From positions 62,001 to 126,000 of the forward strand of contig NZ_JACIJD010000006.1 in the NCBI RefSeq assembly GCF_014199205.1: a DNA stretch of 64,000 nucleotides, given 5' to 3'. Position 1 is the first letter of the stretch. Each line of letters opens with the position of its first letter. The notes under the pieces were generated by a model. That model had not been told where the DNA came from and did not search any database. It worked only from the letters and a program-made list of their open reading frames with translations. The translations under genes and the position numbers were made by a program. Shown here piece by piece: positions 144 through 28,400 of this stretch. This DNA is from Muricoccus pecuniae (lineage in GTDB: Bacteria > Pseudomonadota > Alphaproteobacteria > Acetobacterales > Acetobacteraceae).

Positions 144-386
144 CTATCGCCGGTAGGTGCTAGCTCCCGCATCAAGGGCACGCCGTACCTCTGACGCCCG
201 CAGCCCCATGTCACCCGCCTGACGGTCTGGAACCGCGTAGGTGCTCCAAAATCCTTGGAGCACCCCAGCGTCGAACCGGATTGTCGAGCCAATACGCCGT
301 AGTCTCGGCAGTGGTCCTACCATCACTAAGGCGAATAAAATTGGGTCGCGCAACGATAGTTCCGTTGCCGCCGTCTCAAGGCTCAC
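144..386 (-). CDS. HTH-like ORF coupled to, or frameshifted from, tniQ
   Basis: An 80-codon reading frame begins with a GTG that overlaps the tniQ stop as GTGA. Its product has the look of the helix-turn-helix repeats in TniQ/TnsD C-termini: an SLETAA segment, then IRFD and a W-x-x-Y stretch, then a second helical stretch with ASEVRRALDAG. A run of four G just before the tniQ stop means that one extra base, or a -1 slip, would fuse it in frame to TniQ. It may therefore be a separate translationally coupled protein, a programmed-frameshift extension, or the detached tail of a damaged tniQ. I cannot tell which. No clear gene is seen between here and the left edge. Confidence 0.4.
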   Translation of the reverse strand: MSLETAATELSLRDPILFALVMVGPLPRLRRIGSTIRFDAGVLQGFWSTYAVPDRQAGDMGLRASEVRRALDAGASTYRR

Positions 387-1909: not shown

Positions 1910-2880
1910 GGCTTTACCCTCTTGCGAAGCCTGGTCACACGGGACGTGTCCGGCTCGGTAAGTGGCGGAAGCCGGGGCACCGAGAAGGCGTTGAACCACC
2001 CGGGATCGGGCTGAGCGAGGGCGGCGTGCGCCAGGGCCAGCAAATGGGTATCAATCCTGTCGGCACCACGCCGGGTGCCAAGCTCGATGGTTTTCAGAAA
2101 CAGCTTAAATAGCTGCCGGAAGATGCCTCCGGTCGCTCTCTCAAACCTCTCCAGAATGCCGTCGTCTAGGAGGTCCCCACGCTTCGGGAAGTCCGACGCC
2201 CGCTCGAAAGACTCGACGACCACGCGCAGTCGGCCCCAGCCGTCCGCCTCGGTCCAGACGAGCGGCGTCAGTACGGAGTCGCCGTACCGACGGTCCTCGA
2301 GTTGAACGTTCCCGAAAATCCTTCGAGCAGCTTCAGTGCCGTTGAAGACGACCGGGACCTTAGCTTCGTCAAGGATGTGAGCCTTGATAAAGTCGGCGAA
2401 CCAGTACGATGCACCGGCTGTCTCAGCCTTCTTATCGAAGACCTGCTGCACCTCCTCCATCAGGATAATCTTCGTGCGGCGCAGTTGAAGAAAATGCTGC
2501 ACCCGCGCAATCATCGTTCCCACGTCATGGCGATCTGACAAATCCTCGGTGCCGAGCGCCTTCAGAAAGGTTCCCAGCATGCGCTTGTTGGTGAACGGGG
2601 TGGGTACCTTCATCAGCACGGCGGGCCTTGCGCCGGTTTGGGGGTCCGGTAGTGCCCACGCTTGCCGCATGATTTCGGTGAACACCTGCGTCTTGCCGAC
2701 GCCAGGTGGGCCGGACAGCAATTGGCAGAGGGCGTCGCCGTTCGGCAGGTAGCCGTTATCGCGAAGGTCCTCGATGTTAAGGATCGCGGTTTTGAATTCG
2801 TCTGAGCGGAAGAAGACGCGTTTGAGGCGCGCGATCCGTCGCGCCTCTTCGGCACGACACTGCCCGCGGTCGTCAGTCAT
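1906..2880 (-). CDS. tniB: TniB/TnsC-family AAA+ transposition regulator
   Basis: An AAA+ ATPase that in Tn7-like and Tn5053-like elements links target selection by TniQ to the DDE transposase. Walker A (GPPGVGKT) is at about residues 57-64. The Walker B stretch (IILMEEV) has two glutamates in place of D-E. A long helical C-terminus follows. I chose the ATG of MTDDRG, which overlaps the end of the upstream transposase gene by 8 bases; an upstream in-frame start at 2904 is less likely because it would deepen the overlap. It is read in one operon with tnsB and tniQ. At 324 residues it is of the usual size for TniB. Confidence 0.92.
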   Translation of the reverse strand: MTDDRGQCRAEEARRIARLKRVFFRSDEFKTAILNIEDLRDNGYLPNGDALCQLLSGPPGVGKTQVFTEIMRQAWALPDPQTGARPAVLMKVPTPFTNKRMLGTFLKALGTEDLSDRHDVGTMIARVQHFLQLRRTKIILMEEVQQVFDKKAETAGASYWFADFIKAHILDEAKVPVVFNGTEAARRIFGNVQLEDRRYGDSVLTPLVWTEADGWGRLRVVVESFERASDFPKRGDLLDDGILERFERATGGIFRQLFKLFLKTIELGTRRGADRIDTHLLALAHAALAQPDPGWFNAFSVPRLPPLTEPDTSRVTRLRKRVKP

Positions 2881-4993
2881 CGAGCCCCTCCACCTCGATA
2901 CCACTTTTCCGAGCGCGGTCAGGCAGGCTCTCCTCCGGCTGCGACGCCAGGGTGGGCCTGTCCGCTGAAGGCTTCACCTCAAGCTTCTTCTCCTCTGAGG
3001 GCAGCCCATCGTCCTGCTGCGCCCCGCGGGCACCATCTTGGTCCGCATCCGGTTGCAGAAGGTCAACGACGGACCGGCCGTCCCCTTCGTACTCGAGTTC
3101 GACGGCGCGATGGACCTTCCACCAGGAACCCTTGGAGCCGAGACCGTTGAGGCGCGCCGCCTTCATGCGACCGCTGGCGTGCGGGTTACCCAGGATTTCG
3201 TCCATTGAGCGCTGAAGAGCATCGCGCGCCACGCAGAGATCCTTCACGGAGACATACTTGCGCATGCGCTCGAGAGCTAACCGGCGAATCAACCTGTGCT
3301 GTGCAAGCGTAAGCCCCCGGGTGTACTCGGGCTCTTGGGATTGGAGTTTCTCGTAGCGGCCGGTGGCCGGGTCGAGGACCCAAATGAACTCCAGGTCCGT
3401 CGGATCCATACGGATCTTGAGTGTCATCTTTCTCGGTGACCCGGGTCGGGTTCTGATGAGTTCAAGGATGCGGTGATCATGCCGATCGTTGTAGTGCAGC
3501 CCTAGTAGTTCAATTCCCTTGTTTGAGGGCACGCGCCAGAAGACATAGGCGAGCAGCGCGTCCAGGGAGGCAATATCGAGCGGGGCGCGGACTTCCCACT
3601 CCGCGGTATGCTCACGCCAAAGCCGGTCGGGTACATCGTTGATGCCCCTGTGGTGGCTTCGGTTATAGACCGTCACAACGTAGCGGTGTGCGAGCTCGTC
3701 GACATCTTCCAAAGTCGCACAAGCCATCCGCTCAGCCGCATAGTCGCCCCGGTCATCAGGGCTGTTGCCGGTCGCACCCGGGATCCGGCGAATGAAACCA
3801 GTTTCCAAGGTTCCGAACCAGCGCTCGATAACCGCCTTCCACTCGGGCGTGTCCGGTTTCGTCCAGAACAGGGTGAAACCAAGTTCCGCGGCGGCCTCTT
3901 TGAGGAAGTCGGCCTTGTTCTCGAAGGCGTTGTCGAGGACCACCATGACCGGAACGCCCCAGCATGGCCAATCGGCGCCGAGTTGCGGCCACTTTGACGA
4001 GACGTAGAGCTTAGGTGCGATCGCATTTCTGAGGCAGCCCGCGATCGTTAGGGATGATGGCGGCTCAAGGTGAACATGGAAGCCAACGATGCAGCGCGTG
4101 CAGCGGTCGACGGCAACGGTGATCCAAGGACGACCGAGGGGAGCGCCCGTCCGCCCATCAATGATGATCAAGTCGATGCGGTGCGCGTCGACCTCGTAGA
4201 CCTCACCGGGCCTAGCAGGAACGGGAGCCACCCCGCTGGCACCGAACGCGAGGTCGGCCGCCCGTTTGCCATGTCTCGCCTTGAGCACGGCATAAGGCGA
4301 GAGCTTCCTAACCCAGCGGCGGACGGTCTCTTGGCAGGGAGCTTGGTTGTCCGGAATGCCTCGCCGCCTGCACTCTCCAACGACAGCGTCATGGACTGTA
4401 GCCACGAAGTGCCGTTGGGGAGTCAAATAGCAAAATAAAATCTTGTCTCGGACAATATCAGCAACGACCGCTTCAAGCCGGGCCTTTTTATTTCCTCGGT
4501 TATGCTCCGCAAAGACAAGATAGCGAATATCTTTGCCTCCGGTGAGGGTCCAGATGAGTTTCCAGTAATAAGCGGTAGATTGTCCTGGCACAGGTTCGCG
4601 GAAGCCTTCTCCTTTCTCCTGAGCCTCTGCACGTCGCCTCAGATGAACAGCCTTGATGACATCCCGCGCTTTGTGCGGGCAACCCAGCCTGGTATTCTCT
4701 TGTAGCGCGGCAGCGTAATCCCGCCGCATCCACGCCTGTTGTTTGATCTGCTCGGGCATGGAGGAAAACTCCATACGCAAGAGATGGTGGCGGGAGACCG
4801 GAATCGCAGAATGCGGCGGAAAGGAAAGCTCGCCACTCGTCAACTTCAAGGTAAGATCGCGGTCCTCGTACCAGACCTCCGCGCCGTCGCTCTTCCTAGT
4901 GAACTTCTTGCGGCCAGGTTCGCGCCTAACGAATTCGTAACAGTCAGCGCCGATTTGGACACGATCCCCGAAGGAGAGGCGAAAACCCGTCAT
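2873..4993 (-). CDS. tnsB: TnsB/TniA-family DDE transposase
   Basis: The strand-transfer transposase of the element, with an RNase H-fold (rve) core. The three catalytic acids are all visible: D269 in YEVDAHR, D354 in VVLDNAF and E390 in AVIERWFG, with the usual 35-residue spacing between the second and third. DNA-binding N-terminal domains precede the core and a Mu-type C-terminal region follows, ending in an acidic tail that probably contacts TniB. The start ATG overlaps the stop of the TnsA-like gene (ATGA), so the two are translationally coupled. At 706 residues it matches TnsB/TniA. Nothing in it suggests inactivation. Confidence 0.95.
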   Translation of the reverse strand: MTGFRLSFGDRVQIGADCYEFVRREPGRKKFTRKSDGAEVWYEDRDLTLKLTSGELSFPPHSAIPVSRHHLLRMEFSSMPEQIKQQAWMRRDYAAALQENTRLGCPHKARDVIKAVHLRRRAEAQEKGEGFREPVPGQSTAYYWKLIWTLTGGKDIRYLVFAEHNRGNKKARLEAVVADIVRDKILFCYLTPQRHFVATVHDAVVGECRRRGIPDNQAPCQETVRRWVRKLSPYAVLKARHGKRAADLAFGASGVAPVPARPGEVYEVDAHRIDLIIIDGRTGAPLGRPWITVAVDRCTRCIVGFHVHLEPPSSLTIAGCLRNAIAPKLYVSSKWPQLGADWPCWGVPVMVVLDNAFENKADFLKEAAAELGFTLFWTKPDTPEWKAVIERWFGTLETGFIRRIPGATGNSPDDRGDYAAERMACATLEDVDELAHRYVVTVYNRSHHRGINDVPDRLWREHTAEWEVRAPLDIASLDALLAYVFWRVPSNKGIELLGLHYNDRHDHRILELIRTRPGSPRKMTLKIRMDPTDLEFIWVLDPATGRYEKLQSQEPEYTRGLTLAQHRLIRRLALERMRKYVSVKDLCVARDALQRSMDEILGNPHASGRMKAARLNGLGSKGSWWKVHRAVELEYEGDGRSVVDLLQPDADQDGARGAQQDDGLPSEEKKLEVKPSADRPTLASQPEESLPDRARKSGIEVEGLDD

Positions 4994-5655
4994 GCTTCGC
5001 CTCCCCGGCGTGTTACTGCCACCTCGGTCGCCGAGGTGATCGGGCCACAGCCCAAGCGCTCGAGCTCCCCTTGTGCCACGAGCCCTAACAAGCTTTCCCG
5101 GCCAACTCCCGAAGACCGTTCCAAATTATCGAGACGCGCCGGTCCACCTCGGAGCAGGTCGCTCACCTTGAGTTTGGCTGCGTCATCGAGCGCCAGATGA
5201 AGATTTCCAAGCAATAGCACCGCATCGCTGGCCCGCGGCTTCGAGCGGACAGCGGCGAACGGGATTTCTACCAGCGGCGCTTCTGAATAGTTGCAATGAG
5301 TTCTGGCAAGGTCAGCAACGCGCTTCTGGCGGTCCGAGCGTGGGAAGCCCAGGGGAGATAACTCCACCGTTGCTCGGAAGCCTTCCGCAGTCACTGCCAA
5401 GCTGGGAACGAAAGCCAGCCACTCCGGGCCGTCGGCCAGCATGATGAGTTCGGGATGTACGGCGAAGGACTTCACCTCCGGCGCTGTCTCAAGGAGCGCC
5501 ATGAGCCTGAATTCATCCATTGTCCAAAAGGGCAGTTGACCGCATTTGCGGCTCGAAAACAGGCCTCGCGGGTTGTCCCGCGGCTTCTCGGCGTAGGAAG
5601 GCGCACAGAGCCACCCTGGCCTCCGCTGCCTGTTGAATGCACCTGACGATGGCAT
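4990..5655 (-). CDS. TnsA-like protein with altered catalytic residues
   Basis: First gene of the transposition operon, in the tnsA position. TnsA is the restriction-endonuclease-like subunit that cuts the 5' strands at transposon ends. The N-terminal GLFSSRK stretch, the MDEFRLMALLE helix and the V-K-S-F-x-x-H-P-E turn follow the TnsA N-terminal pattern. E48 is retained. Where active TnsA has a P-D and then an E/Q-x-K, this protein shows FVPS (S85) and VELS (97-100). The metal-binding aspartate and the lysine therefore seem lost, which would predict loss of 5'-strand cutting and cointegrate products. The alignment is by eye. At 221 residues it is shorter than Tn7 TnsA (273). The upstream start is uncertain, but the GLFSSRK motif requires one near here. 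Confidence 0.7.
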   Translation of the reverse strand: MPSSGAFNRQRRPGWLCAPSYAEKPRDNPRGLFSSRKCGQLPFWTMDEFRLMALLETAPEVKSFAVHPELIMLADGPEWLAFVPSLAVTAEGFRATVELSPLGFPRSDRQKRVADLARTHCNYSEAPLVEIPFAAVRSKPRASDAVLLLGNLHLALDDAAKLKVSDLLRGGPARLDNLERSSGVGRESLLGLVAQGELERLGCGPITSATEVAVTRRGGEA

Positions 5656-5919: not shown

Positions 5920-7563
5920 TTAGTGATGAGTGCTGGGCCGGTCCCGGGCCGTGACCACACCATTCACGAGCTTTGCGAGGTGCCGTAAGGATCCACCGCG
6001 CCAAACGCTCGCCACGGCAGCGAACTCCACCACGTCCAGCGGCGACGCCCATCGAGGGTCGAGACCACGTTCGACTGCTGAAGCGACAAGAAGGCGGTGT
6101 GCCAATGCGCTGAGATGTTCCGCGCCAGGGTTCGGAAATCGCAGGATTCTGAACCGGTCCCGCAGCGGCGCCGGAACCCCATCCAGGTCGTTGGCCGTCG
6201 CCAGCCAGACCACATTCTCCATGTTGACCGGCGCCTCGAGGTAGGGGTCGCGCCAGCACCGCGCTGTCCGCTTTTCAAGCATCGCTAGTAAGGCGTCGGG
6301 CAGACTACCGTTGGTCCGCGAGGTTCCTGCCTTCTCGATTTCGTCCAGGATGACGACTGGACTGGCGTGCCGGTGATTCCTCATCATCCCGGTCGGCAGC
6401 GCCGGGCCGCCGGTATTCCACCGTCGTGCCGTCCCCGCGAGAGCGGCATCCGACACGCCACCGCAGCCGTAGACCTCCATCGGCAGATCCAAGAGTTCCG
6501 CAAGCCGCATGGCGAAGGTTGTCTTGCCGCAGCCAGGTGGTCCGACCAGCAGCACCGGCCTGAAGGCGACGTGTGACCGGCCGACGAGGTCCTGGAGGAT
6601 GGCGTCACAGACCTCCGCCGCGTGCGGGAACTCGTGCAGGAGAGCCTCCCGAAGACCCGCCGAGTCAGGCACTGGCTCCAGCGGAAGCGGCAGGTTCAGC
6701 AGATCTCTGAACTCCAGCAGCACTCGCTGGCCCGCCGGGGTCTGCGTGTTGCCGACCTCGGTGAACACCACGGCCGCGAGTGCGCCGGTTTCGGCATCTA
6801 CTTCGGCATGCGGCTCGCCGTCTTCCTCCGGCTCGTCCTCCACCGGCATGAAAGGACGGATCATGCTCGGCGCTCGCCTGCGACGGTGAGGATCGGCCTC
6901 TTGGTGGCCATCTTTTTGTAGCAGCGCTTCCCTGTTGGTCAGCATCTTGAGGAGCATCTGCTCGCCCGGGCCGTCGGGATCCAAAGCGGATGCCAGGAAC
7001 CCCGCGGCACCCTCGCGGGACCACCGCTCGGGCAACGTCGTTTGGCCGTTGGCCGCCAGCAGCCAAGCAATGGCGGCCGTGGCATAGCCAACGGCATCCT
7101 CCTTGCCGATGCCGGGCGAGTAGGCGAGCGCCACCGCATGGGCGGCGACCTTGTGAACCGATGCGTGCACGCCGGTCAGGGCAGCGTAGAGGTGGCACCG
7201 CACTCCCACCTCCATCGCCGCCAGCCTTGCCTGCGGGCTGTCGCGCTGAAGGTCCTCAAAAGCCTTGGCGGCGATGAGATAGTCCTGGGGCTCCGGGAGG
7301 TGAGTGAGCTCGCTCAGGGCGAAGAGCAGCGGGTGAGCGGGCGGGTCGTTGCCGTCCAAGCGGTCGAGCGCCTTCGCTGCGAACTGCGCCGCGTCGGAAC
7401 GGACGTCCTCCTTGAACAGCGCGCAGCCGCGAAGGAGGTCGTTCAGCATGGGCAGGTGGCGTCCCTCCGCCGCGGCCTTGGAGAGCGTGTCCAGCCGCTG
7501 CATGGGGCCAAGGGCGGCACGCACCACCGGGCGGCCAGGAGAGCTATCGTCGGCGTGGCTCAT
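5920..7563 (-). CDS. Lon-type AAA+ ATPase lacking a protease domain
   Basis: A 547-residue protein. About 270 residues of helical, alanine/leucine-rich sequence are followed by a short acidic linker and then an AAA+ core closest to that of Lon. Walker A (GPPGCGKTT) is at 341-349, with a GGVSD-x-x-LAG stretch like Lon pore-loop sequence. Walker B (VVILDEIEK) is near 401-409. Sensor 1 is in WLATANDLDGVPAPLRDRF with the arginine-finger region. It ends just after the small lid domain, so Lon's C-terminal Ser-Lys protease domain is absent. It may be an unfoldase or remodeller working with a separate effector. A GAGG ribosome site lies about 7 bases before the ATG. The gene stands alone, with a strong hairpin about 110 bases upstream. 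Confidence 0.85.
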   Translation of the reverse strand: MSHADDSSPGRPVVRAALGPMQRLDTLSKAAAEGRHLPMLNDLLRGCALFKEDVRSDAAQFAAKALDRLDGNDPPAHPLLFALSELTHLPEPQDYLIAAKAFEDLQRDSPQARLAAMEVGVRCHLYAALTGVHASVHKVAAHAVALAYSPGIGKEDAVGYATAAIAWLLAANGQTTLPERWSREGAAGFLASALDPDGPGEQMLLKMLTNREALLQKDGHQEADPHRRRRAPSMIRPFMPVEDEPEEDGEPHAEVDAETGALAAVVFTEVGNTQTPAGQRVLLEFRDLLNLPLPLEPVPDSAGLREALLHEFPHAAEVCDAILQDLVGRSHVAFRPVLLVGPPGCGKTTFAMRLAELLDLPMEVYGCGGVSDAALAGTARRWNTGGPALPTGMMRNHRHASPVVILDEIEKAGTSRTNGSLPDALLAMLEKRTARCWRDPYLEAPVNMENVVWLATANDLDGVPAPLRDRFRILRFPNPGAEHLSALAHRLLVASAVERGLDPRWASPLDVVEFAAVASVWRGGSLRHLAKLVNGVVTARDRPSTHH

Positions 7564-10398: not shown

Positions 10399-10617
10399 TC
10401 ACCGCCGCTTCTTCGACGTCCTCGGCCTCTTGGGCGTGCCGCCGGTCAGCGCTGACGTCCAGAAGTCAGCAACCTGCTTGTTGCCCTGACGGGCCGCGGC
10501 GGCCTGCTGGCCCTTGGCCTGGCCGCTCATAATGCCGCGGGCGATTCCAGCCCAGGCATTGGCGCCGCTCAGCATCATGCTCAGAAACGGGTTCTTCTTA
10601 CTCCACGGATCGGCCAT
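10399..10617 (-). CDS. Small basic hypothetical protein
   Basis: A 72-residue protein starting MADPWSKKNPFLSMML, with a strong AGGAG ribosome site 5 bases before the ATG, so it is very likely expressed. It has a weakly hydrophobic helical N-terminal half, an Ala/Gln-rich middle and a Lys/Arg tail ending SKKRR. This suggests binding to nucleic acid or an acidic partner. No enzyme motif is visible. It stands alone, opposite in strand to the next gene. I cannot name its family. Confidence 0.65.
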   Translation of the reverse strand: MADPWSKKNPFLSMMLSGANAWAGIARGIMSGQAKGQQAAAARQGNKQVADFWTSALTGGTPKRPRTSKKRR

Positions 10618-12296: not shown

Positions 12297-14282
12297 ATGC
12301 CCGATCCCCATCAGAACTCCGACGAATCGGAGTTCGAGATCCACGTCAGACGGCTCGGTGACGATCCGGACTCCGATGACCCCTACCGCAGGGTAGACCC
12401 CGCGCAGGCCGCGTCCCTCATGGCGCTCCGGCGCGCTCTCGCCGCCCGTCAGATCGACGCGGCCAAGGTCCAGGGCGCGGTCGTCCTGGAAGTGCCGAGC
12501 GCCGACTGGGTAGAGCCCGTCAGCAGCGCCTGGCGCGACATGGTGGGCGCACCCAGCAGGCGGACGTCACGGAGCAGGCTGGGCGACATGGAGGTTCGCG
12601 AGGGCGAGTGGCTGGTCTTCGACGCCACCGGCTCTAACCGTCGTCACCAGCCCGCCTACGAGAACGAGCAGATCTCGGTCAGCCTGTGGCAGGGCCAGAA
12701 CCTTCTCGGCGTTTCCCAGGCACCCGACCGCCACCTGCCGCCCGACCTCCTCCATGCCGCCGATCTGCGCCTCGTTGTGGAGCCGCTGGACGCCGAGGGC
12801 CTCCGCCTGGTCGCCCAATCGGTGACGGACGGCCAGGCGACGGCCCTGCCTCCGGCAGAGGTCTGCGCCCTGATCTCGCCGGTGACCCTGCGGCTGGCGC
12901 GCCGCCTGGACCAATCGGCCGATGACTTCCTGGAGCGCGCCGCCCGGATCGCCACCGGCGGCAAGAAGGCGGCGGTCGGACCGGGCACGTCCCTCGACAG
13001 CCTTCCCGGGATGGACGAGGCCGTGGCCTGGGGGCGCGACCTGGCCCGCGATCTCCGGGAGTACGGCGCCGGTCGGCTGGCTTGGCGGGACGTCGACCGC
13101 GGCTGCTTGCTGGCTGGGCCACCCGGCACCGGCAAGACGACCTTCGCCAGGGCCCTGGCAGCCACCTGCGGCGTGCCGCTGGTCGCCGCCTCCTACGCGC
13201 GCTGGCAGTCGACGAAGGAAGGCCATCTCGGCGACCTACTCCGCGCCATGGCGGCCTCCTTCGACGAGGCCCGCAAGGCCGCGCCCTGCATCATGTTCAT
13301 CGACGAGATGGACAGCCTGCACACGCGGGCGACCACCGGCCAGCACGGCGACTGGTGGGCGGCCGTCATCGGCGGCCTGCTGGAGCACCTGGACGGCCTT
13401 GGCAACCGCGAAGGGGTCGTTGTGGTCGGTGCCACCAACCATCCCGACATCATGGACCCGGCCATCCTGCGGGCGGGCCGCCTGGATCGCACCATCACCA
13501 TCCCGCTGCCCGACCGGCAAGCGCTGGTCGCCATCTTCAGGGTTCATCTAGGGGACGATCTGGCAGGCGCTGACCTCTCGCAGGCGGCCCTGTTCGCGCA
13601 GGGCGGCACGGGGGCGGACTGCGAGAAATGGGCCCGCGGGGCCCGGCGACGGGCACGCGGTAGCGGACGCCCGATGCTGCTGGACGACCTGCTGGCGGAG
13701 ATCCGCGGCGGCGACGGAGCCCGTCCGGTTAGCGACCGGCAAATCCCGGCCGTCCACGAGGCCGGGCACGCGCTGGTGCAGGTGCTCGAGCAGCCGGGCA
13801 GCCTGCAATACGTCTCCGTCCGCGAGGACGCTCAGAGTGACGGGCACACTGCCGTCGCCACGCCGAGCGGGGAGCTCACCGAGGTCTGGCTCGGCACGCA
13901 TCTGCGGCGCTTGCTGGCCGGGCGCGCCGCCGAGGAGGTGGTGCTCGGCGAGGCGACGGGCGGCTCCGGAGGTCCTGTCCATAGCGACCTGGGCCGCGCG
14001 ACACGGCTGGCGCTCAACGCCGAGACGGCCATGGGCATGTCGGCGCGGCCGCTGCTCTGGCTCGGCCTCTGGGACGAGCGCGAGCTCGCCAGCCTGCTGC
14101 TGTCGCGGCCAGACCTAGCGCGGCGGGTCGACGAGCGCCTCAACGCCGCCTACGCGGAGGTTTGCGGCCTATTGCGGGAGCATCGGGCCGTCCTGGATAC
14201 CCTGGTCGCGGCGCTCCTCGACCGGGAGGTGCTGACCGGCGCCGAGGTCGAGGCGATCGTGGAAGCGGGGCGCCGAGCATGA
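12297..14282 (+). CDS. Soluble FtsH-like AAA+ zinc protease
   Basis: A 661-residue protein. An N-terminal domain of ~240 residues resembles nothing I know and lacks membrane segments, unlike true FtsH. The AAA+ module follows: Walker A GPPGTGKTT at 274-282, Walker B CIMFIDEMD, and a second region of homology with ATNHPDIMDPAILRAGRLDR, including both arginine fingers. An M41-type peptidase comes last, with HEAGH at 487-491 and a probable third zinc ligand D564 in SDLGRAT. All catalytic residues appear intact, so an ATP-driven cytosolic protease is expected. Its stop overlaps the start of the next gene (ATGA), and two further genes follow in the operon. The unusual N-terminus probably selects substrates. 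It is clearly an accessory paralogue rather than the housekeeping FtsH. Confidence 0.9.
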   Translation: MPDPHQNSDESEFEIHVRRLGDDPDSDDPYRRVDPAQAASLMALRRALAARQIDAAKVQGAVVLEVPSADWVEPVSSAWRDMVGAPSRRTSRSRLGDMEVREGEWLVFDATGSNRRHQPAYENEQISVSLWQGQNLLGVSQAPDRHLPPDLLHAADLRLVVEPLDAEGLRLVAQSVTDGQATALPPAEVCALISPVTLRLARRLDQSADDFLERAARIATGGKKAAVGPGTSLDSLPGMDEAVAWGRDLARDLREYGAGRLAWRDVDRGCLLAGPPGTGKTTFARALAATCGVPLVAASYARWQSTKEGHLGDLLRAMAASFDEARKAAPCIMFIDEMDSLHTRATTGQHGDWWAAVIGGLLEHLDGLGNREGVVVVGATNHPDIMDPAILRAGRLDRTITIPLPDRQALVAIFRVHLGDDLAGADLSQAALFAQGGTGADCEKWARGARRRARGSGRPMLLDDLLAEIRGGDGARPVSDRQIPAVHEAGHALVQVLEQPGSLQYVSVREDAQSDGHTAVATPSGELTEVWLGTHLRRLLAGRAAEEVVLGEATGGSGGPVHSDLGRATRLALNAETAMGMSARPLLWLGLWDERELASLLLSRPDLARRVDERLNAAYAEVCGLLREHRAVLDTLVAALLDREVLTGAEVEAIVEAGRRA

Positions 14283-14839
14283 GGAGCAAAGCCGACCTGC
14301 TGGCGCATCAGCGCGCGTACCTGGACGACATCTTCAGCCTCACCGAGGGCGAGGAGGAGGTGCGTCGCGGTTTCGAGGAGATGGCGGCCGACACGATCGA
14401 CGCACTCCTGGCGGCAGATACCCCGCCGATGGCACCTTTCTACATCAACCCGTCGAGCGCCTTCTGCTGGTCATGGACGAAGTGGCAGCACCACCTGGTT
14501 GCCCCCGAGCTCGTCGCGCGCTGGATGCAATGGAAGGCGGACTACCCGGCCTTGCAAGCGCGCAATCCCAGGCTGGATTTACACGACGCCCTGGGCTGGT
14601 GCTCGGAGACGCACGACGCTGCCAGTTGGCCCTACGGCTGGGAGCGCCGGATCTACGACTGGGTGGTCTCGGGCGACTTTGCCGCCCGTCCCTTCAGCGA
14701 CGGCATGCGGATTGTGACGCCGGAGTTCTACGCGCGCCTGCGCCGCCTCCAGACCACCGTCGATGGCTGGCTGGTCTGGTCCGAGGAGGCCGGACGTGTC
14801 GTCCATGTCCCCGGGAACGAATGGAGGCGCGGGGCATGA
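14279..14839 (+). CDS. Trp-rich hypothetical protein of the FtsH-like operon
   Basis: A 186-residue soluble protein, start ATG overlapping the protease stop (ATGA). It is notably rich in Trp and other aromatics, for example FCWSWTKWQHH, RWMQWK and WPYGWERRIYDWV, with charged helices at both ends. No family is recognised and no catalytic motif is evident. The tight coupling to the protease on one side and the P-loop protein on the other implies a shared function. A substrate adaptor or a sensor are possible roles, both inference. Its own stop overlaps the next start. Confidence 0.78.
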   Translation: MRSKADLLAHQRAYLDDIFSLTEGEEEVRRGFEEMAADTIDALLAADTPPMAPFYINPSSAFCWSWTKWQHHLVAPELVARWMQWKADYPALQARNPRLDLHDALGWCSETHDAASWPYGWERRIYDWVVSGDFAARPFSDGMRIVTPEFYARLRRLQTTVDGWLVWSEEAGRVVHVPGNEWRRGA

Positions 14840-15408
14840 TCCCTGATGAGCCCACCCGATGCGAAACGGAGAAGCCGATGATCCCAGCAATGCAGCCGAT
14901 ACCGGGAGCAGATGACCTGCTGACGCATCTGCGGTCCTTCTGCTTTCCATGGCGGGCTCTCACCATCGCCATCGACGGGCGGAACGGCGCGGGCAAGTCG
15001 TCGCTGGCGCGCTACCTCGCGTGGCAGCTTGGCATGCCGGTCCTGGAGACGGACCTCTGGCTCTCCTCAATGTCTCCCGTGACCCACCGGATCGGCGACC
15101 TCGGGGAGATGGTTCAGTCTCGGCATCGACAGGGTCGGCCGGTCATCATCGAGGGCATCATGATGCTGCGGACGCTGGAGCTCATCGGCGTGCAGCCAGA
15201 CTACTTCATCGTCGTCACCAACGAGGCGGAGGCCGAACCTGAGGACGATGACGAAGACAGGGGGGCGCCGCAGTGCCTGTCCGAGGAGGTCGACGCCTAC
15301 CTGAGAGAGCGCCAGCCCGCGAAGCGCGCCGACTTCCGTCTGACCTGGCGCGAGCCTGAGGTGCGGATGAGCGTCACGGACGGCACCGCGGACATCGATT
15401 TGAGGTAA
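14836..15408 (+). CDS. P-loop nucleoside-kinase-like protein
   Basis: About 190 residues. Walker A (IDGRNGAGKSS) follows a beta strand near residues 46-56, and ETDLWL and VIIEGIMML supply strand and acidic elements typical of uridine-kinase/NMP-kinase-like P-loop folds. An acidic linker (EPEDDDEDRG) lies near the C-terminal third. The start overlaps the upstream stop as ATGA; an internal ATG at 14878 is an alternative. The phosphorylated substrate is unknown: it could be a nucleoside, a nucleotide second messenger or a sugar, and zeta-type sugar kinases share the same fold. It is part of the FtsH-like operon. Confidence 0.75.
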   Translation: MIPDEPTRCETEKPMIPAMQPIPGADDLLTHLRSFCFPWRALTIAIDGRNGAGKSSLARYLAWQLGMPVLETDLWLSSMSPVTHRIGDLGEMVQSRHRQGRPVIIEGIMMLRTLELIGVQPDYFIVVTNEAEAEPEDDDEDRGAPQCLSEEVDAYLRERQPAKRADFRLTWREPEVRMSVTDGTADIDLR

Positions 15409-15431
15409 GGGTCGAGGGAGGGGCTACACTG

Positions 15432-15563
15432 ATGTCCACTCGGGATGTCCTCCTCGTCGCCCTTGGCGTCGGCCTTTTCCTGTGGTGCGGGCTGGTCGTC
15501 TACTCGACGGTGAGGAACGACAGGCTGCGCCAGAAAGAAGGGGCGCCAGAGAAGCGCCCGTGA
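15432..15563 (+). CDS. 43-residue single-helix membrane peptide
   Basis: The frame begins MSTRDVLLVALGVGLFLW and continues as one hydrophobic helix of about 20 residues, followed by a basic tail (TVRNDRLRQKEG). A GGGAGGGG ribosome site lies about 7 bases before the ATG. It follows the P-loop gene by 23 bases in the same direction, so it is probably the fourth gene of the FtsH-like operon. Small membrane peptides in defence operons often act at the membrane. It could also anchor or be degraded by the soluble protease; both are speculation. Confidence 0.6.
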   Translation: MSTRDVLLVALGVGLFLWCGLVVYSTVRNDRLRQKEGAPEKRP

Positions 15564-15775: not shown

Positions 15776-17881
15776 TCAGATCGCGTCAACGCTCCCCATC
15801 TGATGCTCGAGCGATTGCCGAACCAAGCCGATCACGTAGGGCAACTCGTCCATGGAGGCCAAGCCGACATCCACCTCGCCGTTCCCCCAGCGGCCCATGC
15901 CTGCGATGTTCTTGCAGAGCCCGCGGGGATCGTCGATCTCGTGGAACTTGAGGTTCAGCGTCAGACGTAGCCGCCTGGCCTGGGGGATGACGTCGACGAA
16001 ATTGGTTTCGGCCTTGAACGCGATGTAGACCTTGCGGACCTCCTCGGTCACGCAGGGGTCCAGGGCCAGCACCTGCGCACGGAATGCGTCGAACAGGACG
16101 CGCACAGGGCCGGTCGCCAACTGGGGATGATCGGCGAGGGTGTATCCACCCTGGGTCGCCGTAGGCCGGTATGCCTGCAAGATGGCCGGATCGAGCTTCG
16201 GAGCGGCCCAGACCGATGCTGCCAGGGTGCTCAGCCGCTCCGCCCGCTCCTGGATCGCCGCTTCATCCCAGGTGGACAGGGCGCCGAGCCCCTTGTTTAG
16301 CCGCAGAGGACTGCTGCCGAAGCCAACATCCTTCATGTCGCGATCCTTCATGTCACGCTTCTCGATGAAGGACTTGTCGCTGTACTGGGAATTGTAGCCG
16401 GTCAGCGTCAAATTGCCGAGCGTGTGCAGATAGGTCGAGTGGATCCGCTGCCAGTCAGCACCGAGGGCCGAGCGCCAAGCAGGGGACAGGTTCTCGTTCT
16501 GCGGCATGATGTGCTCGATGGTGTAGTCCTCCACCATCACGCGTTCCCTGCGGCCGTCATTCTCCAGGCGTCGCAGCCAGTAGCTCCGGCTACGGGCGTT
16601 GTAGAGGTCCTTGGTCTGTAGGGCCCGCTTGAACTCCTCGTCGAGTGGGAAGCGGCGGTAGGACGGCAGCCCGAGGAAGTGCGCCTGGATGCTCTCCAGG
16701 TAGCGGTTCTTCTTGAGGGCCTTGCCGAACCCCGCGAAGGTCTTGTTCAGCGAGTTCGTCGGGATGTCACAGACAGCGCGGCGGAAGACATAGCTCTCGA
16801 CCAGGCGCGCGGCCTGCACGAACTCGTCCTTGGACAAAGTGCCGGAGGCGTAATCGTGGTAGAGTTCGAGCAGGAACGGGAGGGCGACCTCGACGCGCAG
16901 TTCCCGGATGTCATGGAAGACGTCCTTGAGCGAGCGGTCGTTCTCGGCTCCCAGCGCCATCTTGCAGTAGTACCCGGCGTAGGCGCGGATATCCCTGACA
17001 AGCTCATCCATGTCGCTCCCGCGGCCGAGCGCGTAGTCCTTGAATACCTCGTAGACCGCCTCGACGTTCGGGATCTCACCCTTCTTGAGGGTCAGGTAGT
17101 GGCGCATGAAGGTGTCGAAGTAGAGCGAGTAGGCCTCTTGGCCGAAGTCGAGCTCCATCGGACGCCAGTACTGCTCGTAGAGCCTGGTCTGAAGCGTGGG
17201 TTCCAGGCCCATGAGGATGAAGTTGCGGATCAGGTCGGCTTGGCTGAGCTTGCGGCCGGTCGAGTTCAGGCTCTCGAAGATTAGCTGTGGGTTGTCCTGA
17301 TCGCGGTTGAGCGAGATGTCCACCACCATGAGCTTGGCGATGCCCTGGCAGACCGTGACCAGGTTGTCCTTCTCCCCCTTCAGCCATTCCTGGAACAGGG
17401 CGAAGTTGGCGTGGATCCGCAGGGAGTGGTCCTTGGGCTGCGGGTCTCCGTCCACCAAGGACGTCAGGGAGGCCTTGTCAGTCTGGGAGAGGACGAGCTT
17501 GTAGCGGCGGTCTCCGTCCTCGAGGGGGTTGAGGAGGAAGTAGTTCCGCAGCTTTTTGGCCGAGAAGCCATCGAGCGGCTCCGTGTCTCCCAACGCCCTG
17601 GCCAGGGCCTCGAGCAGGAGGGTCACCGTTGTCAGCCGTTGCTGGCCGTCAATGACGAGAAGAGGTGGCTGGTTGACGACCTGGTACAGCCCCTTCTCGA
17701 CATAGACAACCGAGCCGACGAAATGGGCGCCGATGCCGGGATTGCGGCCCGCGCTGAGGATATCCTGCCATAGCTGGCGGCACTCGCGCTCGGTCCAGCT
17801 ATAAGTCCGCTGGTAGATGGGGATGACGAACTGGGGCGATCTCTTGAGGAAGTCCAGCAGCTTCGCTTCGGTGGCCTTCAT
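15776..17881 (-). CDS. GmrSD-type DUF262/DUF1524 restriction nuclease
   Basis: A 701-residue fused type IV-like nuclease. The DUF262 (GmrS-like) NTPase domain has IPIYQRTYSW near residue 20 and DGQQRLTT at 78-85. The DUF1524 (GmrD-like) HNH-type domain has IEHIMPQ near 453 followed by HTLGNLTLTGYNS. A C-terminal region of about 110 residues fits DUF5655. Family members cut modified, for example glucosylated, phage DNA. The gene is read alone, convergent with the FtsH-like operon, and is followed by about 200 bases with no gene. All visible key motifs are intact. Confidence 0.9.
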   Translation of the reverse strand: MKATEAKLLDFLKRSPQFVIPIYQRTYSWTERECRQLWQDILSAGRNPGIGAHFVGSVVYVEKGLYQVVNQPPLLVIDGQQRLTTVTLLLEALARALGDTEPLDGFSAKKLRNYFLLNPLEDGDRRYKLVLSQTDKASLTSLVDGDPQPKDHSLRIHANFALFQEWLKGEKDNLVTVCQGIAKLMVVDISLNRDQDNPQLIFESLNSTGRKLSQADLIRNFILMGLEPTLQTRLYEQYWRPMELDFGQEAYSLYFDTFMRHYLTLKKGEIPNVEAVYEVFKDYALGRGSDMDELVRDIRAYAGYYCKMALGAENDRSLKDVFHDIRELRVEVALPFLLELYHDYASGTLSKDEFVQAARLVESYVFRRAVCDIPTNSLNKTFAGFGKALKKNRYLESIQAHFLGLPSYRRFPLDEEFKRALQTKDLYNARSRSYWLRRLENDGRRERVMVEDYTIEHIMPQNENLSPAWRSALGADWQRIHSTYLHTLGNLTLTGYNSQYSDKSFIEKRDMKDRDMKDVGFGSSPLRLNKGLGALSTWDEAAIQERAERLSTLAASVWAAPKLDPAILQAYRPTATQGGYTLADHPQLATGPVRVLFDAFRAQVLALDPCVTEEVRKVYIAFKAETNFVDVIPQARRLRLTLNLKFHEIDDPRGLCKNIAGMGRWGNGEVDVGLASMDELPYVIGLVRQSLEHQMGSVDAI

Positions 17882-22280: not shown

Positions 22281-24116
22281 GTGAGCGACACCTCCCTCTC
22301 GAACCTGATCTGGCAGGTCGCCGACCTCCTCCGGGGCGATTACCGTCCGGCCGAGTACGGCAAGGTCATCCTGCCGTTCACCGTGCTCCGGCGCCTGGAT
22401 TGCGTCCTCGCGCCGACTAAGGCGGCCGCGCTGGCCGAGAAGACTGCTAAGGAGGGGATGGGGCTGAACCCCGACCCCTTCCTCCAGCAGATCACCAAGG
22501 TGCCCTTCTGGAACACCTCACCGCTGGACCTGCCGAAGCTGCTCGGCGATCAGGATAACATCGCGGCCAACCTGACCGCCTACGTACAGGCGTTCGCGGC
22601 GCCGGTCCGGGACATCTTTGACCGCTACCGGTTCACCGAGCAGCTTGACCGGCTCCGGAAGGCCGGTCTGCTCTACCAAGTCATTGAGCGCTTCGCTGGG
22701 TTCGATCTGAGCCCGACGGCCGTGAAGCCGCACCAGATGGGCCTCGTCTTCGAGGAGCTCATCCGCAAGTTCGCCGACGCCGCGAACGACACGGCGGGCG
22801 AGCAGTTCACACCGCGGGACGCAATCGCCCTGATGACAGCCATCCTGTTCGCCGAGGACCACGACGTGCTGACCCCGGGCAACCGGGTGGTCCGCACCAT
22901 CTACGACCCGACGGCTGGGACTGGAGGCATGCTGTCCGGCGCCGAGGAGTACCTGCTCGGCTTCAATCCGCAAGCGACCCTGACGATGTACGGCCAGGAG
23001 CTCAACGACGAGAGCTATGCCATCTGCAAGGCGGACATGCTCATCAAGGGGCAGGACGTCAGGAACATCATCTGCGGCAACACGCTGTCCGACGACGGCC
23101 ACGCGGGCCGCAAGTTCGACTACATGCTGTCCAATCCCCCTTTCGGCGTTGAGTGGAAGAAGGTCGAGAAGGCCGTCCGCCGCGAGTACGAGGAGCAGGG
23201 GTTCAACGGCCGGTTCGGACCCGGGCTGCCGCGGGTTTCTGACGGCTCGATGCTGTTTCTGCTCCATCTCCTGAGCAAGATGCGCCCGGCGAAGGACGGA
23301 GGCAGCCGGATTGGCATCGTCCTGAACGGCTCTCCGCTGTTCACCGGCGGCGCTGGCTCCGGCGAGAGCGAGATTCGGCGCTACGTGCTCGAGAATGACC
23401 TCCTCGAAGCCATCATCGCTTTGCCGACTGATATGTTTTTCAACACAGGGATTGCGACCTACATTTGGGTGCTCTCAAACCGCAAGCCGGAGCACCGCAA
23501 GGGCAAAGTTCAGCTAATCAATGGCTCCGACCAATGGCGGAGGATGCGTAAGAGTCAGGGCAGTAAGCGCCGGGAAATGAGCGACGAACACGTCGCACTT
23601 GTCACCAACTTGTTTCAGGACGCCGCCGAAGCCCGACTGGCTACCCTCACCGACGCGGAGGGCAAGATAATGTCTATGGTCGTTCAGGACGGCCAGGAAC
23701 CTCCTCCGGCGCCGAAGGGTGGCAGCGTCAGGCTTGCTCCCATCTCGCAAGTGTTCCGCAATGAGGATTTTGGCTACCGCACGATCGTGGTTGAACGCCC
23801 GCTGCTCGACGCAGACGACAAACCGATGTTGGGCTTGAAGGGAAAAGCCAAGGGGCGTCCTGTACCCGACCCAGCCCGCCGGGACAGCGAAAGCGTGCCC
23901 CTTACTGAGGAGGTCGATGCCTATTTTGCAAAAGAGGTCATACCTCACGCGCCAGACGCCTGGATAGATCATGAGAGAACCAAGGTCGGATACGAGATCC
24001 CATTCAATAGGCACTTCTACGTATATGAGCCACCGCGTCCACTGGTTACGATCGACACGGAGTTAGAACAGGTGACCGATCGAATCTTGGCGATGATTGG
24101 GGGGCTTAAATCGTGA
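22281..24116 (+). CDS. hsdM: Type I restriction system methyltransferase HsdM
   Basis: A 611-residue N6-adenine methyltransferase with an N-terminal HsdM helical domain. The SAM-binding motif I DPTAGTGGM begins near residue 209 and the catalytic NPPFG near residue 285. The start is a GTG. It forms M2S with HsdS to methylate the recognition site and pairs with HsdR for restriction. Its stop overlaps the hsdS start (GTGA). Base composition drops clearly after about 23,400, in the C-terminal ~240 codons, and stays low through hsdS, suggesting that this part was exchanged together with hsdS. Confidence 0.95.
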   Translation: MSDTSLSNLIWQVADLLRGDYRPAEYGKVILPFTVLRRLDCVLAPTKAAALAEKTAKEGMGLNPDPFLQQITKVPFWNTSPLDLPKLLGDQDNIAANLTAYVQAFAAPVRDIFDRYRFTEQLDRLRKAGLLYQVIERFAGFDLSPTAVKPHQMGLVFEELIRKFADAANDTAGEQFTPRDAIALMTAILFAEDHDVLTPGNRVVRTIYDPTAGTGGMLSGAEEYLLGFNPQATLTMYGQELNDESYAICKADMLIKGQDVRNIICGNTLSDDGHAGRKFDYMLSNPPFGVEWKKVEKAVRREYEEQGFNGRFGPGLPRVSDGSMLFLLHLLSKMRPAKDGGSRIGIVLNGSPLFTGGAGSGESEIRRYVLENDLLEAIIALPTDMFFNTGIATYIWVLSNRKPEHRKGKVQLINGSDQWRRMRKSQGSKRREMSDEHVALVTNLFQDAAEARLATLTDAEGKIMSMVVQDGQEPPPAPKGGSVRLAPISQVFRNEDFGYRTIVVERPLLDADDKPMLGLKGKAKGRPVPDPARRDSESVPLTEEVDAYFAKEVIPHAPDAWIDHERTKVGYEIPFNRHFYVYEPPRPLVTIDTELEQVTDRILAMIGGLKS

Positions 24117-25426
24117 GCCTTCCTGTCTACTCGGCTTACAAGGACAGCGGTTCAACGCTGTTGGGCGCAGTGCCTGCTCATTGGCCAGTCGTGCAGTTCA
24201 AGCGTGTAGCACGACTAGCCTATGGTGCTGCGCTCCCTACAGAGTCCAGGAACGATGCTGGGAGCCTGCTTGCGTATGGATCGAACGGGCCAGTGGGATG
24301 CCACGATGTTGCCAACACGAAAGCGCCTGTGATTATTGTTGGACGCAAAGGATCCTATGGCGCGCTGAATTGGAGCGACGCGCCGGTCTTCGCGATAGAC
24401 ACGGCCTACTTTGTAGATCAGTCTATGGCAGACTGCGATTTGCGTTGGCTATATTGGGCATATTATGTCGCTAATTTTGCGGCATTCTCACAGGATACTG
24501 GCGTTCCAGGCCTAGCTCGCGAGCTAGTTCATGACATGCACTTCGTTAGGCCACCTTCCGCTGAACAACTCGCCATCGCCGCCTTTCTCGACCGAGAGAC
24601 GGCCAAGATTGACGATTTGATTACTCAACAGGAGCGCCTGATCGCGCTCTTGGAGGAAAAGAAGCAGGCGACCATCTCACATGCGGTCACCAAGGGATTG
24701 GACCCGAGTGTGCCGATGAAAGACAGCGGCATTGAGTGGCTTGGTGAGATCCCCGCGCATTGGCATATAACGCGGATCAAGTACGTCACCCGCACACTGG
24801 AGCAGGGCTGGAGCCCTCAATGTGACGGGTATCCGGTAGATAGCTCAGAAGCGTGGGGGGTCCTGAAGGTTGGCTGTGTGAATGGGGGCAGGTTTAATCC
24901 AAACGAGAACAAGACACTGCCGCTCGACCTGGAACCCATTCCAAATCTCGGCCTTCGGGCGGGTGATGTACTCGTTTCGCGGGCGAACACCCGGGAGCTT
25001 GTCGGGAGTGCAGCAGTTGTCTTGGTAGATCATCCCCGCCTGATGCTGTGTGACAAACTTTATAGGCTCAGGATGAACCAAGTCCGCTGCTTGCCCGAAT
25101 TCCTGGCACGATTCTTAGGATCAAACGCCGCGAGGGAACAGATAGGACTAGCAGCGGGTGGGGCGAGCTCATCTATGCTAAACATCTCCCAAGATGCGAT
25201 CATGGATTTACCGTTGCCGCTACCTTCTCTTCGTGAGCAAAAGGATATCCTCGGCTCGCTCGACCGCCACTGTCGCGACAATGAATTACTGACTGCCGAA
25301 GTTGAGCACGGGATGGCGCTACTGAAGGAGCGCCGCGCCGCTCTCATTTCGGCCGCCGTGACCGGCAAGATCGACGTCCGTGGCTTCGTTAACGCTGACC
25401 TTGCGATGCAAGAGGCCGCAGAATGA
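24113..25426 (+). CDS. hsdS: Type I restriction specificity subunit HsdS
   Basis: A 437-residue DNA-recognition subunit. Two target-recognition domains are each introduced by a P-A-H-W segment (LLGAVPAHW near residue 18 and WLGEIPAHW near residue 210) and followed by coiled-coil spacers (FLDRETAKIDDLITQQERL and a second at the C-terminus). The two domains read the two halves of a bipartite site, which cannot be deduced from sequence alone. It is overlapped at both ends by hsdM and hsdR. Codon use is much more AT-rich than in hsdR, as often seen for frequently exchanged specificity genes. Confidence 0.95.
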   Translation: MSLPVYSAYKDSGSTLLGAVPAHWPVVQFKRVARLAYGAALPTESRNDAGSLLAYGSNGPVGCHDVANTKAPVIIVGRKGSYGALNWSDAPVFAIDTAYFVDQSMADCDLRWLYWAYYVANFAAFSQDTGVPGLARELVHDMHFVRPPSAEQLAIAAFLDRETAKIDDLITQQERLIALLEEKKQATISHAVTKGLDPSVPMKDSGIEWLGEIPAHWHITRIKYVTRTLEQGWSPQCDGYPVDSSEAWGVLKVGCVNGGRFNPNENKTLPLDLEPIPNLGLRAGDVLVSRANTRELVGSAAVVLVDHPRLMLCDKLYRLRMNQVRCLPEFLARFLGSNAAREQIGLAAGGASSSMLNISQDAIMDLPLPLPSLREQKDILGSLDRHCRDNELLTAEVEHGMALLKERRAALISAAVTGKIDVRGFVNADLAMQEAAE

Positions 25427-28400
25427 GCATCCACAAGGAACTCGCCTTCGAGGACGGCATCTGCGCCCATCTCGACGGCCATGACTGGTTATACGAAGCC
25501 AAGTCCGCCGACCGGTACGACCGCGCCCGGGCCCTGTTCCCGGAAGACCTCGCGGCCTGGGTGCAGGAGACGCAGCCGGACGCCTGGGCGACCCTGACGA
25601 AGGCGCACGGTGCCTCCGCCACCACCATGCTCGCCGACCGCCTGCGTGACGCCCTGAACAAGCGGGGTACGCTGGTGGTGCTGCGGGACGGCCTGGACGT
25701 TCTGGGTCTCAAGACCTCGCTCGCCCTGTGCCAGTTCCGCCCGGCGCTGGCGATGAACGAGGCCCTGCAAGCCCGCTACGCCGCGAACCGGCTCCGGGTC
25801 GTCCGTCAGGTCCGCTACTCCCTGCACGGCCAGGACTGCATCGACCTGGTGCTGTTCCTGAACGGCATCCCGGTCGCCACTGTCGAGCTCAAGTCGGACT
25901 ATACCCAGTCCGTCGCCGACGCCGTCGACCAGTACCGCTACGATCGGCCGCCGCGGTCCCTGGTCGGCAACAAGGACGAGCCGCTCCTGTCCTTCCCGGG
26001 CGGCGCGGTCGTCCACTTCGCGGTCAGCAATTCAAACGTGCGCATGTGCACGAAGCTCGTGGGCGCAGACAGCGTGTTCCTGCCCTTCGACCAGGGCGAC
26101 AACTTCGGCGCGGGCAACCCTCCAAATAAGTTCGGCGCGCCGACGGCTTACCTGTGGGAGCAGGTCTGGCAGCGGGATAGCTGGCTGGAGATCCTCGGGC
26201 GCTACGTCGTCGCCGAGAAGAACGAGAAGAAGCAACTCAAGAGTTGGCTGTTCCCGCGCTTTCACCAACTCAAGGCTACCCGCAGGCTGGTCGCCTCCGT
26301 CCGGCAGGAAGGCGCGGGCGGCCGTTACCTGATCGAGCACTCGGCCGGGTCAGGCAAGACCAACTCCATCGCGTGGACCGCGCACTTCCTCGCCGACCTG
26401 CACAACGACAAGAACGAGAAGGTGTTCGACACCGTGCTCGTCGTGTCGGACCGCACCGTCCTGGACAAGATGCTCCGGGAGACGATCGAGGGCTTCGAGC
26501 GCACCCTGGGCGTCGTCGCCTCGGTGACGGGCGAGGGCGGCAGCAAGAGCAGCGAGCTCGCCAAGGCCCTGGGCGCGGGCAAGAAGATCGTGATCTGCAC
26601 CGTCCAGACCTTCCCCTGGGCCCTCGACGAGGTTCGCAAGCTGGCCAAGACCAAGGGCAAGCGATTCGCCGTCGTCGCCGACGAGGCTCACTCCTCGCAG
26701 TCCGGCAAGGCGGCTGCCGAGCTTAAGACGGTCCTGACGGCCGAGGAGCAGGCGGACGTCGTGGACGGCGCCGAGGTCAGCGTTGAGGACCTCCTGGCGG
26801 CCAAGATGGCGGCGCGGGCCGACGCGGACACCAGCATCACCTTCGTCGCCTTCACGGCAACCCCCAAGGCCAAGACCATCGAGCTCTTCGGCCGCCGCCC
26901 GGATCCGAGCCGTCCCGCGGCCAAGGACAACCTGCCCGAGGCCTTCGACGTCTACTCCATGCGCCAGGCCATCGAGGAAGGCTTCATCCTCGACGTCCTG
27001 CGCAACTACACCGCCTACAAGATGGCCTTCCGCCTGACCCATGAGGGCCGGGACATGGACGAGAAGGAGGTCGATGCCAGCGAGGCCCGCAAGGGCATCA
27101 TGGGCTGGGTACGGCTGCACCCGACCAACATCGCCGCCCGCGTGCAGATCGTGGTCGAGCACTTCCGGCAGAACGTCGCCCACCTCCTTGGTGGTGAGGC
27201 CAAGGCAATGGTCGTGACCGCCAGCCGGAAGGAGGCCGTCCGCTGGACCAAGCAGATGGAGGCCTACATCAAGAAGCAGGGCTACGGCATCGGCCTGCTC
27301 GCCGCCTTCTCCGGCGAGGTGACCGACACGGAGACGCCCAACGGCCCCTTCACCGAGACGAACATGAACCCCGGGCTGCTCGGGCGCGACATCAAGGACG
27401 CCTTCAAGACGACGCAGTACTCCATCCTGCTCGTTGCCAACAAGTTCCAGACCGGCTTCGACCAGCCCCTGCTGAGCGCCATGTATGTCGACCGGAAGCT
27501 GGGCGGCATCCAGGCCGTCCAGACCCTGTCGCGGCTGAACCGGGCGCTGCCCGCCAAGGGCAAGGACACCACCTATGTGGTGGACTTCGTGAACGAGCCC
27601 GAGGACATCCTGGCCGCCTTCCGCCAGTACTACCGGACGGCCCAGTTGGCGGACGTCAGCAACCCCAACGTCGTGCTCGACCTACGGAACAAGCTGGATT
27701 CCCTGGCCTACTACGATGAGCACGAGGTCGACCGCGTCGCGCGCGCCGTCTCCAAGAAGAACCCCACGCAGGCGGACCTCGACGCGGCGATCGGGCCGGT
27801 CAGCAACCGGCTCCTGACCAAGTTCAAGCAGGCACGGCAGACCACCAAGGACGAGCCCGAGGGCAGCAAGGCCCACACGGACGCCAAGGGCGAGATGGAT
27901 GCCTTGCTGCTGTTCAAGCAGGATCTGGGCACCTACGTCCGCGTCTACGAGTTCCTCGGGCAGATGTTCGACTACGGGAACACCTACTACGAGAAGCTGC
28001 ACCTCTTCGCCCGCATGCTCTTCCCGCTGCTGAACTACGGGCGCGAGCGCGAGGGCATCGACCTGTCGGCTCTCCGCCTGAGCCACCACAAGATGCGGGA
28101 CCTGGGGCAGCAGAGGCTCGCCGTCGGCGGGGGCGAGCAGGTGCCACTTACTCCGATCATCGATGCCGGGTCGGGCTCAGTCCAGGACCGCCACAAGAAG
28201 CGGCTGTCCGACATCGTCCAGGCCATCAATGACCTGTTCGAGGGCGACATCACCGAGGGCGACGCGGTCTCCTACGTGGAGACCATGAAGGCCAAGTTGA
28301 TGGAGTCGCCCATCCTGCTGGAGCAGGCGGCAGCGAACGGCAAGGAGCAGTTCAGCAACTCGCCGAACCTGCACGAGGAGCTCATCAAGGCAATCATCGG

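Follow-up and report, generated by a model that had tools for sequence, protein, structure and literature searches.

We analysed a 64,000-nucleotide stretch of the Muricoccus pecuniae genome (assembly GCF_014199205.1, contig NZ_JACIJD010000006.1, positions 62,001 to 126,000 of the forward strand), referred to hereafter as the window. Its subject of interest is a set of four open reading frames (ORFs), P1 to P4, which were confirmed on the plus strand at 12297-15563: a predicted soluble AAA+/M41 protease, a tryptophan-rich protein, a P-loop protein and a short membrane peptide. An earlier description made without database searches (the sequence-only reading) had called this a four-gene operon coupled by ATGA overlaps. 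The four ORFs are in place and the set recurs in two other species, but the unit is not a fixed one, as P2 is exchanged, P4 moves or is absent and P3 can be frameshifted. The overlap between the P1 stop and the P2 start is real and conserved, and the same four nucleotides, ATGA, are found in the related loci L005 (Pseudoroseomonas deserti) and L063 (a Roseomonas mucosa-type genome). An ATG overlapping the end of P2 (14836) is also present in the window DNA, but the start of P3 is very probably at 14878, because a GGAGA-N6-ATG arrangement, its own Shine-Dalgarno sequence, is conserved there in three lineages and the overlapping ATG is out of frame with P3 in P. deserti; the P2/P3 overlap is thus probably unused. 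Ratios of non-synonymous to synonymous differences (pN/pS) relative to P. deserti were 0.32 for P1, 0.19 for P2 and 0.32 for P3, indicating purifying selection on all three and strong selection on P2. Promoter and terminator scans at the operon gave no useful signal.

The catalytic part of P1 is clear. Both Pfam AAA (5.3e-30, 105 bits against a cut-off of 21.2) and Peptidase_M41 (3.6e-18, 66.6 bits against a cut-off of 29.9) match above cut-off in one chain, which places the protein in the AAA+/M41 superfamily. The Walker A motif (G274-T281), Walker B (D336-E337), the sensor N381, the arginine fingers R392/R395 and the zinc site, made up of HEAGH at residues 487-491 and the third ligand D564, all align with the FtsH of the same genome, and HEAGH was found in all full-length P1 relatives aligned. 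P1 is therefore very likely an ATP-driven unfoldase-protease, and its catalytic residues are intact, as the sequence-only reading had noted. The description of the protein as cytosolic also held. The highest hydropathy over 19 residues is 1.29 in P1, compared to 2.46 in the genome's own FtsH and 2.50 in P4, and the 19-residue scan found no membrane-like segment in P1, including the N-terminal transmembrane region expected of FtsH. By its hydropathy P1 is a soluble protein with no membrane anchor.

The M41 proteases known from bacteria are FtsH proteins anchored in the membrane, and P1 stands well apart from these. It scored 185 bits against the FtsH equivalog model NCBIfam TIGR01241, for which the cut-off is 600, and shares about 28% identity with the FtsH encoded in the same genome. 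We rejected P1 as the housekeeping FtsH. The alternative raised by the sequence-only reading, a housekeeping family kept at one locus in all relatives, is refuted because the canonical ftsH of this genome is a separate gene on another contig, and P1 itself is patchy.

The N-terminal domain of P1, previously unrecognised, is predicted to be a degenerate AAA+ domain. An AlphaFold2 model built from 14 natural relatives had a predicted local distance difference test (pLDDT) score of 80.7, with values >90 over most of residues 35-80 and 130-220. The leading PDB structure matches of this model were all AAA+ domains (Foldseek E 3e-4 to 5e-3), and the top matches in VIA were again AAA+, with Z up to 9.1 over 174 residues; the template modelling scores were modest, 0.3-0.5, and a Z near 8 is not decisive alone. 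Aligned by hhalign with the active AAA+ domain of P1 itself, the N-terminal domain gave E 7e-4, collinear over 149 columns at a probability of 26%, compared to E 0.47 for the P-loop protein P3 as a negative control. The assignment rests on the fold and on hhalign, since the sequence profile of the domain found no match among PDB sequences. Walker A is absent from the domain. No viral relatives of it were found, and phage FtsH-like matches align with P1 from about residue 227 onward. The predicted architecture of P1 is thus pseudo-AAA, active AAA+ and M41, a tandem AAA+ arrangement in which the first fold is modelled rather than solved.

P1 is an accessory, patchy gene that is borne on mobile islands. 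Relatives are present in 7 of the 15 genomes of the genus, and the N-terminal domain profile found 5 of 372 genomes sampled across the class, a lower bound because scoring covered only a few candidates in each genome. P1-like proteins are frequent on alphaproteobacterial plasmids, including those of many rhizobia and roseobacters, and the window genome carries a second, diverged copy on another contig. The sequence-only reading had suggested examining gene order in distant genomes. R. mucosa and P. deserti also have all four genes, but relatives below about 50% identity, whose gene starts were taken from ORFs and not from annotation, lack P2-P4 and are in some cases coupled to other genes. P3 is present in all four close P1 loci, and among 200 genomes of the family only 4 have a P3 relative of at least 70% identity, in each case next to P1. 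A separate observation is that over 14.4 kb spanning the operon, P. deserti (L005) and the R. mucosa-type genome (L063) have 99.6% identity, which suggests recent transfer or very close strains.

P1 might instead be an accessory means of general protein quality control or of adaptation to stress, comparable to the horizontally acquired FtsH2 of Pseudomonas aeruginosa clone C, its neighbours being linked to it by island residence only. Distant relatives that have no partner in common with the window fit this, and bacteria are known to have gained further copies of FtsH by horizontal transfer (PMC10850787). FtsH2 is membrane-bound, however, and P1 has a different architecture; translational coupling to partners is conserved and P3 is kept in all four close loci. 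We regard this explanation as quite unlikely.

The coupled partner of P1 is not always P2. In Belnapia (L020), P1 and P3 are kept and flank two MbcA/ParS/Xre-type genes in the place of P2. In the P1 tree the P2-type loci and the Belnapia locus form sister branches with support of 100/100, so the partner has been exchanged within one closely related operon. Partners other than P2 overlap the P1 stop by ATGA in L020, L012-L014, L045 and L070 and by GTGA in L066, L068, L069 and L047. The overlapping partner is a DEDDh exonuclease in L012-L014 and L045 (the Bradyrhizobium group and Rhodovastum) and a member of a family of 73-78 residues in L066 and L068-L070 (other Roseomonas-group loci). P1 relatives without a coupled partner occur in Azospirillum and Nitrospirillum, and the second copy in the window genome (C43) is also of this type.

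Of the 186 residues of P2, 12 are tryptophans, and 11 of these are unchanged in its relative, which bears out its description as tryptophan-rich. It belongs to no family in Pfam, NCBIfam, PADLOC or PHROGs, and a search of plasmids, viral contigs and 385 genomes of the class for further relatives gave only a 38-residue stretch (E 4e-4) that contains a stop. P2 as a diverged Xre antitoxin was considered and rejected, as it has no similarity to MbcA/ParS/Xre proteins. P3 had been called a P-loop kinase-like protein. The P-loop similarity stands, with weak matches to Cytidylate_kin/AAA_33 and to cytidylate or shikimate kinases, but these are below cut-offs and restricted to the P-loop region, and no kinase family in Pfam or NCBIfam matches over the full length; P3 is a P-loop protein by sequence and its kinase activity is putative. 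P3 was not found in viral contigs, and a single relative lies on an Azospirillum plasmid with no P1 nearby. P4 is, as proposed, a 43-residue membrane peptide by its hydropathy, and it has a recognisable homologue (51% over 35 residues) that precedes P1 in both R. mucosa and P. deserti, compared to a downstream position in the window. Within the genus it occurs only in the three genomes that carry P1-P2. The gene of 72 residues upstream of P1 in the close relatives adjoins a YedK/SRAP-like gene in Belnapia and R. mucosa.

The operon lies on an island that runs from just after recQ to tRNA-Arg/serS (Table 1). Pfam and PADLOC matches uphold the earlier view of a defence-rich island with GmrSD and type I restriction. 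The Tn7/Tn5053-like transposition genes of the island lie next to recQ. A search for repeats at the transposon ends and for an attachment repeat derived from the tRNA found neither. Next to the Tn7-like genes, a protein of 547 residues (5920-7563, minus strand) has an AAA domain (residues 337-498) that matches Lon protease at 1.2e-22; no Lon protease domain was detected in it.

Table 1. Position of the operon, of motifs within it and of neighbouring features in the window.
Feature	Coordinates	Strand	Basis or remark
P1, soluble pseudo-AAA (predicted) / AAA+ / M41 metalloprotease, 661 aa	12297-14282	+	Pfam AAA, Peptidase_M41
P1 residues 35-228, N-terminal domain, predicted AAA+-like fold, no Walker A	12399-12980	+	AlphaFold2 model, Foldseek/VIA, hhalign
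P1 residues 274-281, Walker A GPPGTGKT, active AAA+ domain	13116-13139	+	Alignment with own FtsH; family alignment
P1 residues 487-491, HEAGH zinc/catalytic motif	13755-13769	+	Alignment with own FtsH; family alignment
P1 D564, third zinc ligand	13986-13988	+	Alignment with own FtsH; family alignment
ATGA overlap, P1 stop / P2 start	14279-14282	+	Kept in relatives' loci
P2, Trp-rich protein, 186 aa	14279-14839	+	ORF; no family; relative 82% identical in L005 (P. deserti)
P3, P-loop NTPase, putative small-molecule-kinase type, 176 aa	14878-15408 (longer reading from 14836 possible)	+	Weak Cytidylate_kin/AAA_33 matches at P-loop
P4, single-pass membrane peptide, 43 aa	15432-15563	+	Hydropathy; homologue
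72-aa gene	10399-10617	-	Upstream of P1 in all close relatives (four loci); elsewhere in genus also without P1
Tn7/Tn5053-like transposition genes	383-5655	-	TniQ 5e-14, TniB 2e-10, weak rve
TniQ	383-1999	-	5e-14
TnsC/TniB	1906-2904	-	2e-10 (TniB)
Integrase-core (TnsB-like) transposase	2873-4993	-	Weak rve
221-aa gene in TnsA position	4990-5655	-	No family match; overlaps preceding transposition gene
GmrSD-family type IV restriction protein, adjoins operon	15776-17881	-	GmrSD_N 2e-34, GmrSD_C 2e-25; PADLOC Orf5 1e-186
Type I restriction-modification: methylase 22281-24116, specificity 24113-25426, restriction 25423-28548	22281-28548	+	PADLOC
tRNA-Arg, probable chromosomal edge of island (serS at 29471)	28897-28973	-	Island end opposite recQ

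Defence-type genes also stand beside relatives of P1. At L066-L068 the P1 relative is followed by AbiEi-type genes, with AbiEii too, and an overlapping gene for a protein of 78 residues is present in two of the three; a protease/AbiE set of this kind is a possible composite module. Among four sister genomes, three of the six AbiEii genes lie 2.0-2.3 kb from a P1 relative, where about 0.002 would be expected per gene by simple proportion, a figure that does not account for the density of defence genes on accessory islands. A DUF499 defence-type protein adjoins the P1 relative at L065.

The strongest rival to a defensive role is that P1 serves the mobile elements that carry it by degrading their regulators (repressors, or proteins of transposition and conjugation), much as FtsH does with lambda CII, and that its partner is such a regulator or the adaptor for it. 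The plasmids of many rhizobia and roseobacters carry P1 relatives, phage terminase and portal genes lie beside the relative in Rhodovastum, TnsA/Mu-type transposition genes lie beside that in Bosea, TniQ and TnsC are on the window island itself, and genes neighbouring distant relatives match metallophosphoesterase and polymerase exonuclease families of phages. The elements differ from locus to locus, however, with no constant element gene; Tn7-like genes were not seen in the R. mucosa region examined, and AbiE, DUF499, GmrSD and restriction-modification neighbours recur in the Roseomonas group. We consider this explanation somewhat unlikely, more so than the one set out below. As a side observation, the rhizobial genomes and plasmids at L012, L014, L016 and L049 have a recurrent set upstream of P1, a protein of 190 residues (PHROG 4652 in L012), then metallophosphoesterase and, at some of them, DUF6634; a DEDDh exonuclease follows P1 in some of these loci.

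Our tentative proposal is that the operon is a proteolytic defence switch built on an accessory cytosolic ATP-dependent protease and its coupled partner. Defence by regulated proteolysis is a best guess drawn from genomic position; the context supports it because GmrSD and type I restriction-modification are present here and AbiE and DUF499 beside relatives. P1 would assemble into a hexamer whose inactive first ring takes the place of the membrane domain of FtsH as a docking and gating platform. By analogy to p97 and Pex1/Pex6, this ring would bring the complex together and take over from the membrane in accepting substrates or adaptors. The conserved translational coupling suggests that P1 and its partner, here P2, are needed in a set proportion, which would fit an adaptor or a labile substrate made in step with P1. 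Upon phage infection or a similar stress the partner would decide what P1 destroys, and P3 and P4 may be accessory sensor or output parts. A cell-suicide output, as put forward in the sequence-only reading, is hypothetical.

Alternatively, P1 might attack phage or plasmid proteins directly. The pseudo-AAA ring or the partner would recognise a foreign protein and pass it on for proteolysis, so that the protein is restricted and the cell does not die. The intact unfoldase-protease, the location in a defence island and exchangeable partners that could set specificity are consistent with this, but no recognition domain of a known type was found in P2-P4, and nuclease-like and antitoxin-like partners suit regulation better than recognition. 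We think it improbable.

Several observations weigh against a defence switch. The Phe-Val-Gly pore loop 1 of FtsH is not conserved in P1, where the aligned region is WQSTKEGHLGD, so substrate handling may differ. A model of P2 from two sequences (pLDDT 49) was too poor to use. In the R. mucosa loci (L004, L063 and L064, two strains) a G run of 7 in place of 6 shifts the frame of P3 near residue 142, and P3 is therefore not indispensable; the frameshift may reflect decay, dispensability or phase variation. There is no AbiEii in the window genome, and the link to AbiE comes from a sister clade in which the partner of P1 is not P2. Many distant relatives lie on plasmids beside metallophosphoesterase, DUF6634 and exonuclease genes, surroundings that look like those of mobile elements rather than clearly defensive ones.

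It is conceivable, if rather doubtful, that P1 founds a family of soluble AAA+ metalloproteases with two rings, an inactive one and an active one, and an M41 chamber. Defence islands would share this protease as their executioner or sensor core, and its coupled partner (P2, Xre-type, DEDDh, or the 78-residue protein with AbiE) would be swapped to change the trigger or output. If true, a soluble M41 branch with a dead AAA+ ring at the position of the anchor would be a second way to build and control an FtsH-type machine. The exchangeable partners and the AbiE, GmrSD and restriction neighbours make the P1 operon a concrete candidate for a proteolytic defence module. Should it have no part in defence, P1 would still be a membrane-free, purifiable M41 protease for mechanistic work.

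The sequence-only reading knew of no named defence system with this set of genes, and profile searches of PADLOC, NCBIfam and PHROGs name none. In PADLOC-DB 2.0.0 no component matches P2 or P4, and P3 gives only P-loop noise (E>=0.001). IetAS resembles the locus in combining an AAA+ ATPase with a protease in defence islands, where IetS is a separate subtilisin-type serine protease. P1 was rejected as IetA: its PADLOC IetA score (82.5 bits) is lower than that of the genome's own housekeeping FtsH (120.7 bits), so the resemblance is a generic AAA signal, and it reached 84 against NCBIfam IteA, for which the cut-off is 510. At Pfam E<=1 neither P2-P4 nor GmrSD matched a subtilase, and none of the genes adjoining P1 was recognised as a protease. 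AbiE, a type IV toxin-antitoxin system of abortive infection, directly adjoins P1 relatives in three sister loci but is not in the window genome. In Belnapia the gene coupled to P1 is of the MbcA/ParS/Xre antitoxin type, and antitoxins of this type are also found near P1 in Bosea and Lichenicoccus, but P2 is not similar to them and no RES toxin was noted beside the Xre-type genes. In open-licence papers we found nothing relevant on soluble FtsH, M41 in phage defence or DUF6634, and no earlier description of a P1-type pseudo-AAA / AAA+ / M41 protein. Cdc48/p97 and Pex1/Pex6 are tandem AAA+ machines, the first ring of Pex1/Pex6 being inactive, and like P1 they carry one AAA+-like domain behind another; they lack a protease domain, and the first domain of P1 has no detectable sequence similarity to PDB entries. 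With FtsH, P1 shares an AAA+ motor followed by an M41 protease in one chain, with the same catalytic residues in the same order; it differs in having neither transmembrane segments, a periplasmic domain nor the Phe-Val-Gly loop, and in carrying instead a predicted pseudo-AAA+ domain at its N terminus.

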